Part shown: piece after piece, positions 1-6,018 of the stretch | How the letters are laid out: every line of letters starts with the position of its first letter | Numbering within the stretch: position 1 is the stretch's first letter | NCBI GenBank assembly: GCA_030620925.1 | Contig: JAUXIQ010000140.1 | Coordinates: forward strand, 1-6,018 | Direction of reading: 5' to 3' | Length of the DNA stretch: 6,018 nt | Source: JAUXIQ01 sp030620925 [NCBI: Nitrospinota bacterium] | Lineage (GTDB): Bacteria; JAUXIQ01 | The notes under the pieces: model-generated | What the model was told of the DNA's origin: nothing | Seen by the model: only the letters and a program-made list of their open reading frames with translations | Database searches by the model: none | Translations under genes and position numbers: made by a program

Positions 1-1019
1 CCGTGTATCTGCAGAGCTTCATCCGCCAGGTGGTGGTGCACCCGGGCGGCGAACACCTTGATCATGGCCACCTCTTTTCGATAATCCTTACCTTCCTGGA
101 AAAGCCACGACGCGTGGTAGAGCAGTTGGCGCGAGGCTTCCAAGTCTATGCCCATATCCGCCAGCTTGTGGGCCACCACCTGGAACTTGCTTATGGGTCG
201 GCCGAAAGCCACCCTGTCCTTTGCGTATTGCTGCGCATCCTCGTAAACTTTCTGTGCCGCACCCAGGCTGTAAGCGGAGACGACCAGACGCTCCGCCTGG
301 AAAGTGTTCATGATGGCGTAAAACCCCTGGCCTTCTTCTCCGAGAAGCCTGTCGGCGGGAATGCGACAGTCTTCAAAAGCGAGGGCGGAAGTGCCCGACA
401 CGTGATGACCGATTTTTTTGATCTTTGAACCGGAAAATCCCGAAGTATCGGTATCGAACAGGAGGACGCTGATATCCCTGTGTCTGCCCCCCTTACCCGT
501 CCTCACGGCCAGGACTATGGCATCGGCGAAGCTCCCGTTGGTGATGAACATCTTGCTGCCGTTGATGACGTATTCGTCGCCTTCCCGGATGGCGGTGGTC
601 TCTATGGAAGCCACGTCGGAACCGGCGTTGGGCTCGGTTATGCCCAGGCACAGTATCTTCTCGCCGGTGATGGCCGGCACCAGGTAAGCCTCCTTCTGCG
701 CCGGGGTGGCGTGGACGTTGATGAAATGGGCGGCCATTTCGGAGTGGGTTATGAGACTGTTGGCCACGCCCAGGCTCTGGCTGCGGCCAAGCTCCTCGCA
801 GAGCACGATGGTGGAGAAGAAATCGGCTTCGCTGCCCCCGTATTCGGCGGGGTATCTTATGCCGAAATAGCCCAGCTCACCCACCTTGCTGAAGAGCGCC
901 CTGGGTATCTCTCCCTTCTCCTCCCACTCTTCGATATGCGGGGTTATTTCCGCCTCCACGAATTTCCGCACGCTGTTCCTTAATAAACTGTGTTCTTCAG
1001 TCAGATATATGGATTCCAT
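1..1019 (-). CDS. Acyl-CoA dehydrogenase, 3' end outside window
   Basis: FAD-dependent flavoenzyme family that oxidises an acyl-CoA to the trans-2-enoyl-CoA and passes electrons to electron-transfer flavoprotein; it acts in the cytoplasm. I translated 339 full codons from the ATG at 1019. The N-terminal helical domain is residues 1-120. The family signature GITEPNAGSDV (126-136) opens the beta domain, MFITNG (157-162) is the usual flavin-contacting stretch, and the C-terminal helical domain contains DRVAFGRPISKFQ (268-280) and stops at ALQIHG, just before the usual GG.GY segment. Family length is about 380, so roughly 40 residues are missing. The canonical C-terminal catalytic Glu would lie outside. 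Glu243, in AERL, occupies the position used as base by isovaleryl-CoA and long-chain enzymes, so substrate class cannot be fixed. The start is firm: an in-frame TGA lies just upstream (1026-1028) and an AGAAGGA Shine-Dalgarno lies at 1031-1037. Glutaryl-, isovaleryl- or short-chain specificity are all possible. Confidence 0.95.
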   Translation of the reverse strand, partial: MESIYLTEEHSLLRNSVRKFVEAEITPHIEEWEEKGEIPRALFSKVGELGYFGIRYPAEYGGSEADFFSTIVLCEELGRSQSLGVANSLITHSEMAAHFINVHATPAQKEAYLVPAITGEKILCLGITEPNAGSDVASIETTAIREGDEYVINGSKMFITNGSFADAIVLAVRTGKGGRHRDISVLLFDTDTSGFSGSKIKKIGHHVSGTSALAFEDCRIPADRLLGEEGQGFYAIMNTFQAERLVVSAYSLGAAQKVYEDAQQYAKDRVAFGRPISKFQVVAHKLADMGIDLEASRQLLYHASWLFQEGKDYRKEVAMIKVFAARVHHHLADEALQIH

Positions 1020-1106
1020 CTGGACTCAATTCCTTCTGAATGGACGGATTCTAACGGCAGCACGAAATCGTGGCGCCATGCCGCGGAGAAAATCTTTTCG
1101 GGGCCG

Positions 1107-1135
1107 ATTATGGCAGGTCAGGGTTTAGATTTCAA
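1107..1135 (-). promoter_or_regulatory. Sigma-70-like promoter for the acyl-CoA dehydrogenase gene
   Basis: On the minus strand, TTGAAA (1130-1135) and CATAAT (1107-1112) each differ from consensus at one base and are separated by exactly 17 bp. The -35 box lies inside the last codons of the upstream CysRS-GT gene. Transcription would begin near 1100, giving a leader of about 80 nt before the ATG at 1019. It suggests the dehydrogenase can be expressed separately from the CysRS gene. Found by eye only. Confidence 0.45.
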
Positions 1136-3295
1136 CAAGTCGGTGCGGTGATGCCACCTGGTCAGGAAGCGGTAGAAGTTCTTTTTGCTATTCCTATCCC
1201 TCTCGTCCTGGGGCATGGCCGCCCAGTCCATACGATCGTAAATCTGGATGGGGAGGTCGGGGGTGGTCTGGAGGATATATCCTTTATCCCGAAACTGGAA
1301 GCTGTAGTCCAGGTCGAGGTTGCGGTAGAACCTGAATTTTTCGTCCATCAGTCCCACCTCACTTAACAGCCCACGCCGGAAAGCGAAGCAGTAGCCGAGC
1401 ATGGCGTCCACCCTGGGGGTGGGCGCATCTTTAAACTCGTGCAGGTCTTCGGTGAGCACCCCACGGGCGCCGGTTACTCCCACCTTTTCATCCGCCAGTG
1501 TCTCGCGGATGGGGCCGAAGACGTCCCCCTTAAGCTCGGCGCAGCCGTCGAGGAGAATCACGTATTTCCCGCAGCTCTGTTTGAGCCCTACGTTCCTTCC
1601 CGCCGCCTCTCCCAGGTAGTGATCGGCGTCTATTATCCGGAGGTTTTCATGGACGACTGAAAAATCTTCTATAAGCTCGGCGGTCTCGTCCAGGGAGCCG
1701 TTCTGGACCAGGATGATCTCCAGGTCGTATCCCTCCGACCAGCTCAGAACGCTGTCCAGACAGCGTTTCAACTCCGGAAAGTTGTCGTGGGCCAGAAGGT
1801 TCACCGAGAACTCACACCCGTCAGGCTCCGATATGAGCGATTCCACCTCGGCGGAGCTCGAAACGGGCTCCGCTCCCCCCTTCCCGGCACCCATCGTAAG
1901 GTAGGGATTGCGAATGGCAAGGGGTCCTTCAGAGGTGTCCATTATCTCGTAGCCGGTGGCCATTATCATTTCCCTCAGCTGGTCGGCCTCGATGAAGCTC
2001 GAGGACTCCCGGTGCGCCTTGCGCTCTTTCAGCGGCTCCTGAACATCCCGGCGCGTCTTCTGATTTTCATAGAGCCATCCCTTGATGTCCAGCCCCAGAA
2101 CCCGATCGAACTCCCATAACAGCCAGAGCTTTTCTCCGGCCGAGAGGTCGGCCTTGAGCATGCGCCACAGAACGGTAAGCGCCCTGGGTAGCGCCAGGTC
2201 GTCGGCTACCGCCTGCCCGAACTCAAGCTCCCAGTGGGCGCATCGCGGGCTTCTGCTCCCCACCCCTCCCGTCTCTCCGGCCAGCAGGGCGGCGTTCTTC
2301 CTTAATTTCAGCAGCCGCGCCTGCGCCGCCTTCAGAGAGCCTATGGTGAAGTTGAGCCGGCTGCGGTAATGGGCGCCGAGACACAGGTATCGGAAGGCCA
2401 GCGGATCGTATCCCCGCTTCTCTATATCGGCGATGATGTAGGCGTTCCCGGTGGATTTGGCCATTTTCAGCCCGTCGGCCAGAAGATGTTGGCCGTGCAC
2501 CCAGTGGTTGACAACGCGGTGCCCCACGGCTGCTTCCGACTGCGCTATCTCACCCTCGTGATGGGGAAAAATGTTATCCACGCCGCCGGTATGTATATCG
2601 AACTCCTCTCCCAGATATTTCATGGACATGGCGGAACACTCGATATGCCACCCCGGAAACCCCTCACCCCAGGGGCTGGGCCACTTCATTTCCCGCCCCG
2701 GTTCGGCGAATTTCCAGAGGGTGAAATCCTCAGGGTTCCGTTTGCTGGTGTCCGCCTCCACCCTCACCCCTTCCAGGAGCGACTCCAATCGGTTGCCGGA
2801 GAGCCGGCCGTAACCCTCAAACCCCTTAACATCGAAATAGATATTGCCCCCGCTCTGATAGGCGTAACCCTGCCCCATAAGGTTCTCTACTATGGCTATC
2901 ATCTCGGGGACGTGTTCGGTGGCTCTGGGAAAATGTTGAGCGGGCAGGATGTTCAGCTTCCGCTCATCGAGGAAAAATGCTTCGGTATAGTATTGAGCTA
3001 TCTCCAGGGGCGTCTTACCGGCGGCCCTGGCGGCGGCGATGACTTTATCTTCGCCGCGCTCCAGCATCTCCTGACGCATGTGGCCGATATCGGTAATGTT
3101 CTTGACGTGCACCACGCGGCAGCCGAAATATTCGAGCGCCCTCCGAAGCCAGTCGGACATGAGGTATATGCGCATGTTGCCGATATGGGGGAAGCGGTAG
3201 ACAGTGGGCCCGCAGGAATAAATTTTCGCCAGCCCCGGCGTTATGGGCTGGAAGGGCTCTTTGTCGCCTGTCAGCGTGTTGAACAGGGTGAGCAT
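1118..3295 (-). CDS. cysS: Cysteinyl-tRNA synthetase fused to a C-terminal family 2 glycosyltransferase-like domain
   Basis: The N-terminal half charges tRNA-Cys with cysteine using ATP, in the cytoplasm. Seen (725-residue numbering): zinc ligands Cys28, Cys220, His245 and Glu249; the HIGH-motif variant HIGN (37-40); GWHIECSAMS (215-224); FPHHEGE (243-249); KMAKS (277-281) for the usual KMSKS; then a DALR-type helical domain and the usual CysRS tail ending near 462. That is a complete synthetase of normal length (about 460). A linker (463-495) leads, with no stop, into a GT2-like domain (496-725) with VQNGSLDE, LLDGC where a DxD is expected, FYRNLDLDYSF and a basic C-terminal tail ERDRNSKKNFYRFL. 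No membrane segment is apparent. The start at 3295 is preferred because the protein then begins MLTLFNTLTG as family members do and GGCGG lies 5 nt upstream; an ATG at 3310 would add five residues and has no Shine-Dalgarno. Synthetase function is confident; the role and sugar donor of the GT domain are unknown. Confidence 0.96.
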   Translation of the reverse strand: MLTLFNTLTGDKEPFQPITPGLAKIYSCGPTVYRFPHIGNMRIYLMSDWLRRALEYFGCRVVHVKNITDIGHMRQEMLERGEDKVIAAARAAGKTPLEIAQYYTEAFFLDERKLNILPAQHFPRATEHVPEMIAIVENLMGQGYAYQSGGNIYFDVKGFEGYGRLSGNRLESLLEGVRVEADTSKRNPEDFTLWKFAEPGREMKWPSPWGEGFPGWHIECSAMSMKYLGEEFDIHTGGVDNIFPHHEGEIAQSEAAVGHRVVNHWVHGQHLLADGLKMAKSTGNAYIIADIEKRGYDPLAFRYLCLGAHYRSRLNFTIGSLKAAQARLLKLRKNAALLAGETGGVGSRSPRCAHWELEFGQAVADDLALPRALTVLWRMLKADLSAGEKLWLLWEFDRVLGLDIKGWLYENQKTRRDVQEPLKERKAHRESSSFIEADQLREMIMATGYEIMDTSEGPLAIRNPYLTMGAGKGGAEPVSSSAEVESLISEPDGCEFSVNLLAHDNFPELKRCLDSVLSWSEGYDLEIILVQNGSLDETAELIEDFSVVHENLRIIDADHYLGEAAGRNVGLKQSCGKYVILLDGCAELKGDVFGPIRETLADEKVGVTGARGVLTEDLHEFKDAPTPRVDAMLGYCFAFRRGLLSEVGLMDEKFRFYRNLDLDYSFQFRDKGYILQTTPDLPIQIYDRMDWAAMPQDERDRNSKKNFYRFLTRWHHRTDLLKSKP
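1121..1810 (-). other. GT2-like (GT-A fold) domain within the CysRS fusion protein
   Basis: Residues 496-725 of the fusion. The opening FSVNLLAHDN, the strand-loop EIILVQNGSLDET and the segment AAGRNVGLKQSCGKYVILLD follow the GT2 nucleotide-sugar-binding half. The downstream part, GYCFAFRRGLLSEVGLMDEKF (longer than typical spacing by nothing obvious), matches the acceptor-side half. The metal-binding DxD reads D583-G-C585, so the second Asp is absent, and the usual ED.DL motif reads NLDLDYS. It may be active in a divergent way or may serve as a binding domain. The only plausible internal start, ATG at 1892-1894, has no Shine-Dalgarno, so separate translation is unlikely. Confidence 0.8.
1910..3295 (-). 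other. Complete CysRS portion of the fusion protein
   Basis: Residues 1-462: class I catalytic core with all four zinc ligands, the HIGN and KMAKS ATP-site signatures, then the DALR-type helical domain (around ELEFGQAVADDLALPRAL and EFDRVLGLDI) and the conserved tail (KERKAHRESS, EADQLREMI, GYEIMDTSEGP). Because the tail that normally ends free-standing CysRS is intact, the extra domain is an addition, not a replacement of part of the synthetase. Confidence 0.9.
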
Positions 3296-3300
3296 GGGTC

Positions 3301-3305
3301 CCGCC
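3301..3305 (-). promoter_or_regulatory. Weak ribosome binding site favouring the 3295 start of cysS
   Basis: GGCGG on the minus strand, 5 nt upstream of the ATG at 3295. The alternative ATG at 3310 is preceded by a pyrimidine-rich stretch with no Shine-Dalgarno. This, together with where family members begin, decides the start, though the site itself is weak. Confidence 0.4.
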
Positions 3306-3354
3306 AGCATATTGAAGATGGAAAAAGTAAAAGGAAATCAGTATCCTATATTAG

Positions 3355-3383
3355 ATTTTATTCGATGCTGGGGGCAGAGTCAA
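3355..3383 (-). promoter_or_regulatory. Sigma-70-like promoter for the CysRS-GT gene
   Basis: TTGACT (3378-3383) and TAAAAT (3355-3360) on the minus strand with a 17-bp spacer. It lies in the 135-bp gap between the phosphotriesterase-like gene and cysS, and transcription would start near 3348. The leader would be only about 50 nt, too short for a T-box riboswitch, which often controls cysS in Gram-positive lineages. This is the best-looking promoter on the minus strand of the window. Confidence 0.6.
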
Positions 3384-3430
3384 AACCGTTTTCCGCTGTG
3401 GAATACTCTATTTCCGGAACCCCGCGACTT

Positions 3431-4480
3431 TCATGCCGGAGTGGGCTCCACGAAAGTCAGAATCCTCGCCGGATTTTCCACCATTATGGTTTGCAAGTCT
3501 TCATCAGTGATACCGGCGGCTCGCATATAGGGGGGAAGATGGTTCAGGATGTGGGAGATGCCCCATCCCCCGTATCGCTGGAGGCAAATCTTGAAGCAGG
3601 CGTCATGGGAGATGAGCAGGTTGCTCAGGAACCCGGAGTCTATCATTTCTTTGACGGCGTCGATGGAAACCATGTCCGAGGAGAAATGAGTCCGGTAGGT
3701 GTCCTGATAAATCTCCATCCCGAAGGTATCGTATTCGGTGTAAGCCCCCTTTGCGGCGATGGCTTTATGGTAATCCAGATCGTCCGCAGTGGCGTTCATG
3801 TGGCATATTATCACCCGTTCGAGCCTGGCCCCTTCCTCTTCCAGTATGTCAAGAATGCGCAAACCCTCTTTCCTATGGGGGTGCGGGTGAACGCTGAGGG
3901 GGGCGCCGGTCCGCAGGCTGGCTACGGCCGCCGCCCGCAGGACCTTCTCCTCATCGGGGGTAATGGGCGAGCTGGTCCCTATCTCACCGATGAGCCCCGG
4001 CCGGACCCCTACCCTCCTGACCCCGTCGGTTATCTCCCCAATCAACTGGTCGGCTATCTCCTGAACCGATTTCTGGGCCACTTCGGGCGGATGAGAAGCC
4101 TGGGTATAGTATCCGCTGCCCATTATTATGTTCAGTCCAGTCTGTTGGGCCACGCTTTTCAGCGCCGCAGGGTCGCGGCCGATACCCATATTGGTGACGT
4201 CTACTATACTTTTTCCCCCGGCCCTCTTGAAAGCGATGGCCTCTTCCAGGGCCACCTCGATGTCGAACTGGACCAGGTTGTCCAGATTAGTCAACGGGTT
4301 CCGCCTAACTTCTCCCAGGTTGGTGATCTCCAGGGGAGCGTGAGCGATGGCCTTTTTAGTGGCCTCCTTGGGCTCGTTCCACCAGCAGCGGCCGTCCATG
4401 AACAGGTGCTCGTGAGTTAACGTTATCCCCAATTCCCCGGGCTCTATGGGGCCCAACACGGTCATGACTTTGCCTTCCAT
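3431..4480 (-). CDS. Phosphotriesterase-superfamily metal-dependent hydrolase
   Basis: Amidohydrolase-superfamily TIM barrel related to phosphotriesterase, phosphotriesterase-like lactonases and E. coli Php/YhfV; cytoplasmic, no signal peptide. Seen in the 349-residue protein: LTHEHL (21-26) supplies metal ligands His23 and His25; GEIGTS (165-170) places Glu166 where phosphotriesterase and the lactonases have the carbamylated Lys, as in the Php branch; SVHPH (197-201) gives His198; ICHMNAT (225-231) gives His227; and SHDACF (291-296) gives the catalytic Asp293. All metal ligands are therefore present. Length is normal for the family. The start is the ATG at 4480, with GAGAGG 6 nt upstream and MEGKVMTVLGPI matching family N-termini; an in-frame TTG at 4531, overlapping the previous stop, is less likely. 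The MBL gene lies 47 bp upstream on the same strand. Substrate unknown: a lactone, ester or N-acyl compound is possible; phosphotriester hydrolysis is not implied. Confidence 0.93.
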   Translation of the reverse strand: MEGKVMTVLGPIEPGELGITLTHEHLFMDGRCWWNEPKEATKKAIAHAPLEITNLGEVRRNPLTNLDNLVQFDIEVALEEAIAFKRAGGKSIVDVTNMGIGRDPAALKSVAQQTGLNIIMGSGYYTQASHPPEVAQKSVQEIADQLIGEITDGVRRVGVRPGLIGEIGTSSPITPDEEKVLRAAAVASLRTGAPLSVHPHPHRKEGLRILDILEEEGARLERVIICHMNATADDLDYHKAIAAKGAYTEYDTFGMEIYQDTYRTHFSSDMVSIDAVKEMIDSGFLSNLLISHDACFKICLQRYGGWGISHILNHLPPYMRAAGITDEDLQTIMVENPARILTFVEPTPA

Positions 4481-4486
4481 GTATCG

Positions 4487-4492
4487 CCTCTC
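4487..4492 (-). promoter_or_regulatory. Ribosome binding site deciding the start of the phosphotriesterase-like gene
   Basis: GAGAGG on the minus strand, 6 nt before the ATG at 4480. It supports that ATG over the in-frame TTG at 4531. The same GAGAGG core precedes the upstream MBL gene. Confidence 0.7.
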
Positions 4493-4502
4493 AGTTATTA
4501 GG

Positions 4503-4531
4503 ATTAAACCTTTGAAGAAACCTGCAATCAA
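4503..4531 (-). promoter_or_regulatory. Possible promoter between the MBL and phosphotriesterase-like genes
   Basis: TTGATT (4526-4531) and TTTAAT (4503-4508) on the minus strand with a 17-bp spacer. Transcription would start near 4496, giving a very short leader that still contains the GAGAGG site. The -35 box matches consensus at only four of six bases, so read-through from the MBL gene is an equally good explanation. Confidence 0.3.
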
Positions 4532-5436
4532 CCGCCCGCTTCTTCTCCTTCCACCACGTTTTTCACCATGGACCTGAAGAGCGCTTGCATGATATCCTTG
4601 GGAACCACCCCTTCACCGGCCTCGCCTAAGTAGTCGTCAGTGACCTGCATCGTGGTTTCCTCGATGTCCCCCGTGCTTCTGTAAATGGATAGCATCTTCT
4701 GCCTGAAATTCTCGGTGGCTTCGAGGGACTTTCTCAAGTAGTCGCGCCCCTCCTCTCCGGTAAATATGCCGTGATTGGGGGCACCCACCATTTCTATGGG
4801 ATAGTCTTTGAGACGTGAGAGCGATCGCTGAAACTGCAGATAGTCCTCGTTACCCATGGGGAAGACCACCCCGTTTGCGTCCGGTATTCCCGCGGCGTCC
4901 GTCCCGAAGAGAGCTTTAATGACGGGAACATAGGCGGCGATGGCGCAGGAGCTGTGCCCCGGCATGGCAATTATCTCGACGGTGACACCCTGGCCCAGGT
5001 CTATCACATCTCCATCGCCCACCGCCTCATCCACCTCTATGCCATCGAAGGCGAGGGACAACCCGCCCCAGTCCTCGGCCATGCCGTGCTTCTCAAGCTC
5101 CTGCCGGTTCATATACTGGATGAACTTAACGGCCTTTTCCTTGGCATAAATTTCCCTGGCGCGGTGAGAAGCCACCACCTTGATGTGCGGGAGCTTTTTC
5201 TTGATGGGCGGCACTGCGCCGCAGTGGTCGTAGTGGGAATGAAGGATGAGGTAGCGTGTTATGCGGCCGGTGTCTATGCCCCTCTCCTCTATCTGCTGGA
5301 GAAGTGTAGGGACCAAATAACTCATGGCGCCCTCGATCAACATATATTCCTCACCCTTCAACAGGTAAGTACACATATCGAATTCGCCCAGATATTCCAG
5401 CCGCTCGTTTATGGTGGCCGGCTCTTTAATCCACAT
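4528..5436 (-). CDS. MBL-fold metallo-hydrolase
   Basis: Member of the metallo-beta-lactamase fold, a family of binuclear zinc or iron hydrolases and oxidoreductases that includes lactonases, glyoxalase II and thioesterases. Seen in the 302-residue protein: the HSHYDHCG motif (66-73) supplies His66, His68, Asp70 and His71; MPGHSS supplies His161; GTDAAG supplies the bridging Asp180; and APNHGIF supplies His222. All canonical metal ligands are present, so it should be active. A helical C-terminal extension (about 230-302) follows the core. No signal peptide or membrane segment is seen, so it is probably cytoplasmic. The start is the ATG at 5436, with GAGAGGA 8 nt upstream; an in-frame GTG at 5469 would add eleven residues and has no Shine-Dalgarno. 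It is first of the minus-strand run and 47 bp from the phosphotriesterase-like gene. Substrate not identifiable; it is not a flavodiiron protein, since no flavodoxin domain follows. Confidence 0.93.
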   Translation of the reverse strand: MWIKEPATINERLEYLGEFDMCTYLLKGEEYMLIEGAMSYLVPTLLQQIEERGIDTGRITRYLILHSHYDHCGAVPPIKKKLPHIKVVASHRAREIYAKEKAVKFIQYMNRQELEKHGMAEDWGGLSLAFDGIEVDEAVGDGDVIDLGQGVTVEIIAMPGHSSCAIAAYVPVIKALFGTDAAGIPDANGVVFPMGNEDYLQFQRSLSRLKDYPIEMVGAPNHGIFTGEEGRDYLRKSLEATENFRQKMLSIYRSTGDIEETTMQVTDDYLGEAGEGVVPKDIMQALFRSMVKNVVEGEEAGG

Positions 5437-5444
5437 TTGTTGTA

Positions 5445-5451
5445 TCCTCTC
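5445..5451 (-). promoter_or_regulatory. Ribosome binding site deciding the MBL gene start
   Basis: GAGAGGA on the minus strand, 8 nt before the ATG at 5436. The upstream alternative GTG (5467-5469) is preceded by TACTGACCCGTTTGA, which has no Shine-Dalgarno, so the shorter protein is favoured. Confidence 0.65.
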
Positions 5452-5558
5452 ATCTGAAATTGTTGTCACTCAAACGGGTCAGTAATTTTTCTACTCGATC
5501 AACGCCGCTTCCCAGTGTAGTTACCACAAATAGACTTCAAATTCCACCTTAATGGTCG

Positions 5559-5587
5559 CTCATACTTCATAAAACGAAATTCAGCAA
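5559..5587 (-). promoter_or_regulatory. Weak candidate promoter for the MBL gene
   Basis: TTGCTG (5582-5587) and TATGAG (5559-5564) on the minus strand with a 17-bp spacer. Both boxes match consensus at four of six positions. The inverted repeat beginning at 5593 would sit immediately upstream of the -35 box, a common activator position. The implied leader of about 115 nt is long. Low confidence. Confidence 0.22.
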
Positions 5588-5592
5588 CACGA

Positions 5593-5633
5593 TCCGGTCG
5601 GGCTGAAGCTTCAGGCTGATCCTGCCGACCGGA
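5593..5633. repeat. Nested inverted repeat, possible operator
   Basis: Two perfect 9-bp inverted arms, TCCGGTCGG (5593-5601) and CCGACCGGA (5625-5633), flank a 23-bp centre that contains a perfect 12-bp palindrome, CTGAAGCTTCAG (5603-5614), and a direct repeat GGCTGA at 5601-5606 and 5614-5619. Arm centres are 32 bp apart, close to three helical turns. No T-run follows on either strand and no gene ends here, so it is not a simple terminator. It could be a regulator site for the divergent genes or a copy of a dispersed genomic repeat. Confidence 0.6.
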
Positions 5634-5679
5634 GCAATCTCAGGCCCCCTGCCTGCGCCGGGGTTGTTATATTAAATGT

Positions 5680-5709
5680 TTGCATCAATTTTAAGCGGTA
5701 TGCTATTAT
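5680..5709 (+). promoter_or_regulatory. Sigma-70-like promoter with extended -10 for the isomerase gene
   Basis: TTGCAT (5680-5685) and TATTAT (5704-5709) on the plus strand with an 18-bp spacer. TGC directly before the -10 gives an extended -10 (TGN). The stretch is AT-rich in contrast to its surroundings. Transcription would start near 5716, leaving a leader of about 48 nt to the ATG at 5764. Confidence 0.55.
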
Positions 5710-5763
5710 TTTGTAATTACCAGGAAAACAAGTTTTTCTGTTCTTCGTTACCAGGTGGATGAA

Positions 5764-6018
5764 ATGAACGACCAGGATGAAATTACCGACCTCGCAAAAG
5801 ATGTGCTCACCATAGAGAGCAGCGCCATAAACGCGCTCATACCCCGCATCGGAAAATCTTTCCTGCAAGCCGTGGACATATTGTACGACTGTAAGGGAAA
5901 AGTGATCGTTACCGGGATGGGCAAATCGGGGCTGGTGGCCGGTAAAATAGCGTCCACCCTGGCCAGCACGGGAACGCCCGCTTTCTTCCTCCATCCCGCC
6001 GAGGGGAGCCACGGGGAC
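5764..6018 (+). CDS. KpsF/GutQ/KdsD-type arabinose-5-phosphate isomerase, N-terminal part
   Basis: Family that interconverts ribulose-5-phosphate and arabinose-5-phosphate, the first step towards KDO for lipopolysaccharide or capsule; cytoplasmic. The 85 codons seen cover the first part of the SIS (sugar isomerase) domain: GMGKSG (51-56) binds the sugar phosphate, with Lys54 matching Lys59 of E. coli KdsD; STGTP (68-72) follows; and HPAEGSHGD (77-85) contains His83, matching His88 of KdsD. The rest of the SIS domain and the usual paired CBS domains lie beyond the window (family length about 320). AGGTGG at 5753-5758 lies 5 nt before the ATG and supports this start; an in-frame GTG at 5755 is possible but overlaps that site. 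Which paralogue (kdsD, gutQ or kpsF) cannot be told. If the host lacks KDO synthesis, another sugar-phosphate role would be needed. Confidence 0.93.
   Translation, partial: MNDQDEITDLAKDVLTIESSAINALIPRIGKSFLQAVDILYDCKGKVIVTGMGKSGLVAGKIASTLASTGTPAFFLHPAEGSHGD

Follow-up and report, generated by a model that had tools for sequence, protein, structure and literature searches.

What would a glycosyltransferase (GT) domain do on the end of a cysteinyl-tRNA synthetase (CysRS)? The question is raised by a 6,018-nucleotide stretch of DNA from a Nitrospinota bacterium (contig JAUXIQ010000140.1; the whole stretch is referred to here as the window), in which a single gene encodes both. Our preferred, though tentative, answer is that the protein is a specialised second CysRS, found mostly in Chloroflexota, whose appended GT would be directed at tRNA(Cys). 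The key observation comes from shorter relatives in Chloroflexota, in which the synthetase core is absent and the GT remains joined to the anticodon-binding domain (ACB) of CysRS. The retention of ACB and GT without the core is a new finding.

The fused gene lies on the minus strand at positions 1118 to 3295, and the coordinates given below for its parts are on this strand. Translation gives 725 codons followed by a stop, with no break inside; an alternative start at 3310 would give a protein of 730 residues. The class I catalytic core of the CysRS (residues 1–341, positions 2273–3295) scores 437 bits against a core hidden Markov model (HMM) and contains the motifs HIGN and KMAKS and the zinc ligands C28, C220, H245 and E249. 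The protein scores 420.2 bits against the NCBIfam CysRS equivalog model TIGR00435 (cut-off 340, residues 2–458) and 324 bits against PF01406, while its score against PRK14536 is below threshold (454 versus 780 bits). The C-terminal tail of the synthetase is an ACB (residues 413–463, positions 1907–2059, E 5.7e-9), as detected with an HMM built from 78 ordinary, unfused CysRS. It carries R425, R429, F434, D438 and D453 at the positions of E. coli R423, R427, W432, D436 and D451. A linker (residues 464–496, positions 1808–1906) fills the stretch between the ACB and GT matches and leads into a family 2 glycosyltransferase (GT2) domain of the GT-A fold (residues 497–725, positions 1121–1807), assigned from its predicted structure, fold matches and PF00535 (56.5 bits, cut-off 23.3, residues 502–624). 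The initial annotation had described just such an uninterrupted frame, with a complete CysRS, its normal tail, a linker some 33 residues long and a complete-looking GT2 domain, and each of these elements is borne out. A full-length structure model had a mean predicted local distance difference test score (pLDDT) of 71.7, with parts of the CysRS core below 50, and was therefore not used to place the domains.

The fusion is real. A scan of genome contigs recovered full-length copies in a metagenome-assembled genome (MAG) titled Desulfarculaceae (JdFR-97), in three Dehalococcoidia MAGs and in one SAR202 record (AG-426-M11), together with a copy cut by a contig end in another SAR202 MAG. Desulfarculaceae are members of the Thermodesulfobacteriota; Dehalococcoidia, including the SAR202 cluster, are Chloroflexota. 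Of 294 genomes sampled from the class Dehalococcoidia, 35 match over both domains and four more match in part: two with a frame change (G142 and G298), one split over two contigs (G289) and one broken inside the CysRS part (G336). A search with the GT profile recovers the identical 39 genomes. In the phylum of JdFR-97 the fusion is present in 3 of 297 genomes, which make up the whole of JdFR-97's class (3/3), and one of these copies sits on a 642-kb contig. An assembly error or frameshift, a concern voiced when the gene was first described, is ruled out by the occurrence of full-length fusions of about equal length in independently assembled records, the 642-kb contig and AG-426-M11 among them. 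Two fused genes (L344 and L357) lie inside open frames that, at about 1,100 codons, are unusually long.

The synthetase half looks like a working enzyme. Motifs were counted in 35 distinct fusions, and residues of the GT in 38 full-length ones; L337, the same gene as L276, was set aside as a duplicate. The zinc ligands (C28, C209, H234 and E238 in E. coli numbering) are kept in 35/35. The HIGH-type motif reads HIGN in 33 of the 35 and HLGN in the other two, and the KMSKS-type motif is KMAKS in nearly all, apart from a single KMSKS and a single sequence in which R replaces the first K. As these motifs are intact, the fusion likely charges tRNA(Cys). In a tree of 131 CysRS, which omits three fragments (L053, L063 and one piece of L175), 41 fusion rows and an unfused copy from G079 form one clade with a Shimodaira–Hasegawa-like approximate likelihood ratio (SH-aLRT) support of 99. 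This clade sits within the insert-type CysRS and apart from the host-type CysRS that the fusion genomes also encode; because of this separation we conclude from the sequences that the fusion CysRS is an acquired second CysRS and not a recent duplicate of the host gene. All trees are quick searches without bootstrap, and the GT tree and a later CysRS tree omit near-identical and fragment rows. The G079 copy (L158:4457-5830) lies directly behind cysS and has, judged by eye, lost KMSKS and a zinc cysteine; it is likely a pseudo-enzyme of the fusion clade without a GT.

A separate CysRS accompanies the fusion in most genomes. It was present in six of the six genomes of the first scan, and TIGR00435 finds a full separate CysRS in 34 of the 39 fusion genomes, pieces only in two (G153 and G307) and none in three (G175, G227 and G336); many of these genomes are fragmented, so that a missing copy is weak evidence. 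The window's own genome also encodes a stand-alone CysRS, a point that the initial annotation had marked for checking: it is an open frame of 525 residues on another contig (C5), flanked by genes that read as ispD and rlmB. This genome has 2.5 Mb in 445 contigs and is 89.5% complete and 3.6% contaminated. The window is positions 1 to 6018 of one of these contigs (C359), which may be misbinned. A pattern search, which may miss others, and ARAGORN together give one tRNA-Cys in the genome, with anticodon GCA.

A 20-row GT profile matched 118 of 400 Chloroflexota genomes, and many of the matching frames are too short for the fusion. The short frames that were read start with a CysRS-like C-terminal tail. 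We analysed 130 of the 133 matched places (99 and 31 distinct ones); the other three (in G060, G125 and G098) are fusions already in the set. Sorted with the ACB HMM, the 130 loci comprise 46 fusions, 77 ACB-GT proteins without a core (one of them, L356, appears to be a fusion truncated at a contig end) and seven others. The HMM detects the ACB in 39 of the 46 fusions. Among the seven are the GT part of a fused gene in another frame (L277), two loci cut by contig ends (L284 and L367) and three low-scoring GT2 proteins of 92–111 bits (L326, L368 and L369); the seventh is taken up below. When the ACB profile was run against 15,360 distinct open reading frames, from loci picked for CysRS or GT and so not a genome-wide survey, it matched only in the company of a CysRS core (153) or of this GT (75). 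When a GT tree is rooted with 12 other GT2 domains, the ACB-GT rows are nested within the fused rows, in groups of 23 and 51. This nesting is suggestive of core loss, possibly on two occasions, with ACB and GT remaining joined. Six of the 77 ACB-GT genes have beside them, in tail-to-tail orientation, an unfused gene for a full CysRS that includes an ACB, and this CysRS falls in the fusion clade (56 rows, SH-aLRT 99).

Within the ACB, residues of the anticodon pocket stand out as conserved. In the complex of E. coli CysRS with tRNA(Cys) (1u0b), G34 is contacted by R427, D436 and W432, and R423 takes part in a water network (PMC12684709, in the sections available). Equivalents of R423, R427, D436 and D451 are present in all 35 fusions and in all 77 ACB-GT proteins, and in the latter position 432 is aromatic in 77/77. 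In 72 distinct ACBs only six of the 51 columns are at least 95% conserved, namely these same four residues together with A435 and G446. We take D451 to have a role in the anticodon pocket as well. Since a GT without the core nearly always retains an ACB with invariant pocket residues, the GT appears to be tied to the anticodon reader and not to cysteine activation. An intact pocket where the aminoacylation core is absent likewise points to tRNA(Cys) as the ligand of these GT proteins.

These observations suggest a mechanism. The CysRS part would charge tRNA(Cys), the ACB would hold the GCA anticodon, and the GT domain, tethered right behind the ACB, would use a nucleotide sugar to glycosylate the bound tRNA, with the anticodon arm as the most likely site. 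We infer the tRNA binding by the GT proteins, the catalysis, the site and the sugar. More broadly, and held more loosely still, the proteins may be bacterial tRNA(Cys) glycosyltransferases that belong to one family and are guided by an ACB borrowed from CysRS; in one form, as in the window, a single chain could charge and glycosylate the same tRNA, and the other form would be a free-standing ACB-GT enzyme. To our knowledge, no bacterial tRNA carries such a sugar modification.

Whether the GT transfers sugar is the less certain part of this reading, and here the main alternative has to be weighed. The predicted fold is that of GT-A enzymes. An AlphaFold2 model of the domain (pLDDT 79.7, predicted template modelling score 0.83) matches a Leptospira GT2 enzyme of the GT-A fold in Foldseek (6p61, E 2.9e-13). 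In VIA-align, where rows differing by no more than 1 in Z were counted as tied, it matches the PcManGT mannosyltransferase (Z 20.1), chondroitin polymerase (20.0) and the WrtF fucosyltransferase (19.5). Residues H559, G562, N568, F621, A631, Y635, R641, E652, Y657, R658, D661, S665, G672, S703 and N706 are invariant in 38/38 fusions. D661 (positions 1313–1315) is the candidate catalytic base, a role that we take over from GT2 enzymes in general. The DxD position is occupied in the window by D583-G-C-A-E587 (positions 1535–1549), with the first aspartate present and the second substituted. D583 is kept in 37 of the 38 fusions, and the second position is S in 33, C in three, N in one and W in one. 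In the ACB-GT proteins that position is most often S, G, N or T, and aspartate is not among the commonest residues. Because the usual metal ligand is missing, we are less sure of sugar transfer than of charging. E587, which is present in 54 of 59 fused and 60 of 74 ACB-GT rows, could, speculatively, substitute for it.

It is thus conceivable, if on balance unlikely, that the GT-A domain is no longer an enzyme and has become a binding domain, for tRNA, for a nucleotide sugar as signal or for a partner, which tunes the CysRS; the ACB-GT proteins would then be tRNA(Cys)-binding regulators. The lost second aspartate speaks for such a non-catalytic, regulatory role, as does the replacement of the first aspartate by serine in 4 of 74 ACB-GT proteins, and appended domains are common on aminoacyl-tRNA synthetases. 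Against it stands the conservation of D583 (124/133) and D661 (127/133) across the wider family, along with R641, N706, G562 and N568. The GT part is also under purifying selection: its ratio of nonsynonymous to synonymous substitution rates (dN/dS) is 0.04–0.29 in 19 of 20 tested pairs, the twentieth not being computable, and in fused pairs the GT and CysRS parts have similar values.

Several further points weigh against a glycosyltransferase docked on tRNA(Cys). The metal-binding aspartate is absent in every one of the 38 fusions, which leaves catalysis uncertain, and the window's own GT deviates from the family at D531 (Q), H686 (Y) and H688 (R). In the literature searched, which was open-licence (most subscription papers and bioRxiv lay outside its scope), no tRNA glycosylation of the proposed kind was found. 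Support for the ACB is uneven: the Pfam CysS_C model gives no report on the window's piece, and of three ACB-GT proteins two exceed its cut-off and the third does not; the seventh of the other loci (L320) has a decayed CysRS and a GT with no ACB. Deep nodes of the GT tree have supports of 81–92, so that the direction and number of core losses are unsure. Selection on the N-terminal part of ACB-GT proteins, estimated over 25–87 codons in eight pairs, is noisy, with dN/dS of 0 to 0.60 in seven and no value in the eighth. Finally, 12 of the 77 ACB-GT frames have no ATG, GTG or TTG ahead of the anticodon pocket.

These start-less frames (L253, L255, L256, L295, L301–L305, L311, L313 and L334) have a common setting. 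Eleven of the 12 open where a gene that, in a different frame, reads as etfA comes to its end; in seven of the 12 the junction is, by eye, ACG GAT or ACG GAC. Translation might begin at a near-cognate start codon or reach these frames by a frameshift from etfA.

The remaining explanations fare less well. The GT might act on the cysteine of Cys-tRNA, giving S-glycosyl-cysteine, or on cysteine residues, and so make or detoxify glycosylated cysteinyl-tRNA. Both domains do reside on one chain, and GT2 enzymes that glycosylate cysteine exist (SunS), but ACB-GT proteins lack the aminoacylation core and the GT is attached behind the ACB, which makes this account improbable. The initial annotation had proposed that the GT might modify or bind tRNA, bind a nucleotide sugar, or serve a thiol-cofactor pathway like that of mycothiol, in which the GT would make a glycoside and the CysRS half would ligate cysteine to it. 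The retention of ACB with GT favours the first of these ideas, whereas the thiol pathway finds no support and now seems more improbable still. MshC is a CysRS paralogue (PMC2922099, in the sections available), and the MshC model TIGR03447 does give a partial match of 214 bits. That match covers only residues 2–377 (the model has 411 positions) and falls far short of the cut-off of 485; the anticodon-pocket residues are present in 35/35 fusions, and no family of neighbouring genes extends beyond 9 of the 26 loci compared. In MshC the core is present and the ACB missing, the reverse of the ACB-GT proteins, so the thiol-cofactor idea fits poorly, and the association of ACB with GT favours a glycosyltransferase docked on tRNA(Cys) over such a pathway. 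The least probable account, a neutral fusion in which a horizontally acquired spare CysRS carries a GT tail with no functional coupling, has for it the full separate CysRS of 34 of the 39 fusion genomes and a fusion clade distinct from host CysRS, and against it the retention of ACB with GT where the core is absent, purifying selection, and a conservation that spans deep divergence and two classes.

Relatives of the GT free of an ACB were considered as the origin of the domain and rejected, as high scores were confined to carrier genomes or their class. Among 386 bacteria-wide genomes (E ≤ 1e-24, best six places per genome scored) scores above 94 bits came only from the window's own genome; among 116 genomes (E ≤ 1e-12, best 22 places) the next best score was 95 bits; and among 297 genomes of the phylum of JdFR-97 (best nine places) scores above 113 bits came only from its class of three. 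Absence in these searches is not exhaustive, since the best few candidate places per genome were scored. Plasmid matches to the GT number 26 records, all below 60% identity, and PHROGs gives only a weak GtrB-like match.

Neighbouring genes were compared across the window and 25 fusion loci. The most widespread neighbour family is found at nine of these 26 loci, sharing looked lineage-bound, and a conserved operon partner for the fusion was rejected on this basis. In the window, a phosphotriesterase-family protein and a metallo-beta-lactamase-fold protein adjoin the fused gene on the same strand (3431–5469), and at L122 a relative of the former is likewise adjacent to the fusion, though on its opposite side. 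Among ACB-GT genes, named by reading, a pepF-like gene follows 20 (most of L239–L252 and L279–L289), a manC-like gene precedes 10 and a gamma-glutamyltransferase-like gene precedes seven. The manC-like neighbour hints at GDP-mannose as donor, in that lineage only. The 120 loci with a fusion or ACB-GT gene contain five tRNA genes, none of them for Cys. At L362:2237-4090 the frame of the ACB-GT also takes in, ahead of it, a stretch of about 300 residues resembling, by reading, a cyanophycinase-type peptidase.

Other unusual CysRS genes occur in the same genomes. JdFR-97 encodes a 799-residue protein (L066:1000-3399, and L172) in which a domain reading as O-acetylserine sulfhydrylase (CysK-like) is fused to a third CysRS. 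A CysRS of about 390–400 residues without an ACB is present in 12 of the 39 fusion genomes (L159, L160, L163–L167 and L169–L171). Ten rows of it form one clade among the host-type CysRS (SH-aLRT 99), and its size recalls MshC or CysRS*.

If a glycosyltransferase directed at tRNA(Cys) proves correct, sugar metabolism would be linked to bacterial tRNA through an anticodon reader derived from a synthetase, and dozens of genomes provide a test set. Should the GT turn out not to be an enzyme, the pairing of a GT-A domain with an intact CysRS anticodon pocket in the absence of the core is still a new re-use of synthetase parts. In either case, a likely tRNA-binding module is present in Chloroflexota proteins that would otherwise pass for plain glycosyltransferases.

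No description of a CysRS-GT or ACB-GT protein was found in the literature searched, and the fusion is best placed by comparison with its nearest known counterparts. Like the insert-type CysRS (TIGR00435; PRK14536-like), it has a complete core, the zinc site, a KMSKS-type motif and an ACB; it differs in being a second genome copy, in forming its own clade and in its C-terminal GT2 domain. With GT2 enzymes of the GT-A fold (6p61, WrtF 9oml and PcManGT 6yv7) it has in common the fold (Z 19–20), PF00535, D583 and the position of D661, but the second aspartate of the DxD is replaced and, in Chloroflexota, the family occurs almost only with CysRS-derived parts. MshC is likewise a CysRS paralogue; the fusion differs in having the ACB and in missing the MshC model (214.4 versus 485.1 bits). 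The sections available of a review of synthetase paralogues name MshC, CysRS* and LysX and contain no word starting "glycosyl" (PMC9437257), and those of a paper on synthetase-like proteins in non-ribosomal peptide synthesis cover MshC and synthetase fusions, again with no such word (PMC2922099). CysRS* of Desulfobacterales is, in the same part of the review, also a noncanonical CysRS paralogue, but one without an ACB and with no GT mentioned (PMC9437257). A reported reaction comparable to the proposed one is that of QTGAL and QTMAN, which are reported to add a sugar to queuosine, an anticodon-loop nucleoside (PMC12518689, in part). Queuosine is found in tRNAs with GUN anticodons (PMC12313893, in part), whereas the anticodon of tRNA(Cys) here is GCA. 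In its architecture the fusion is comparable to LysX, in which a LysRS is fused to an MprF transferase domain and two biochemical steps proceed on one chain (PMC9437257, in the sections available). LysX makes lysyl-phosphatidylglycerol, whereas the window's protein joins a CysRS to a sugar-transferase fold, and it is the anticodon domain that is kept where the core is absent.

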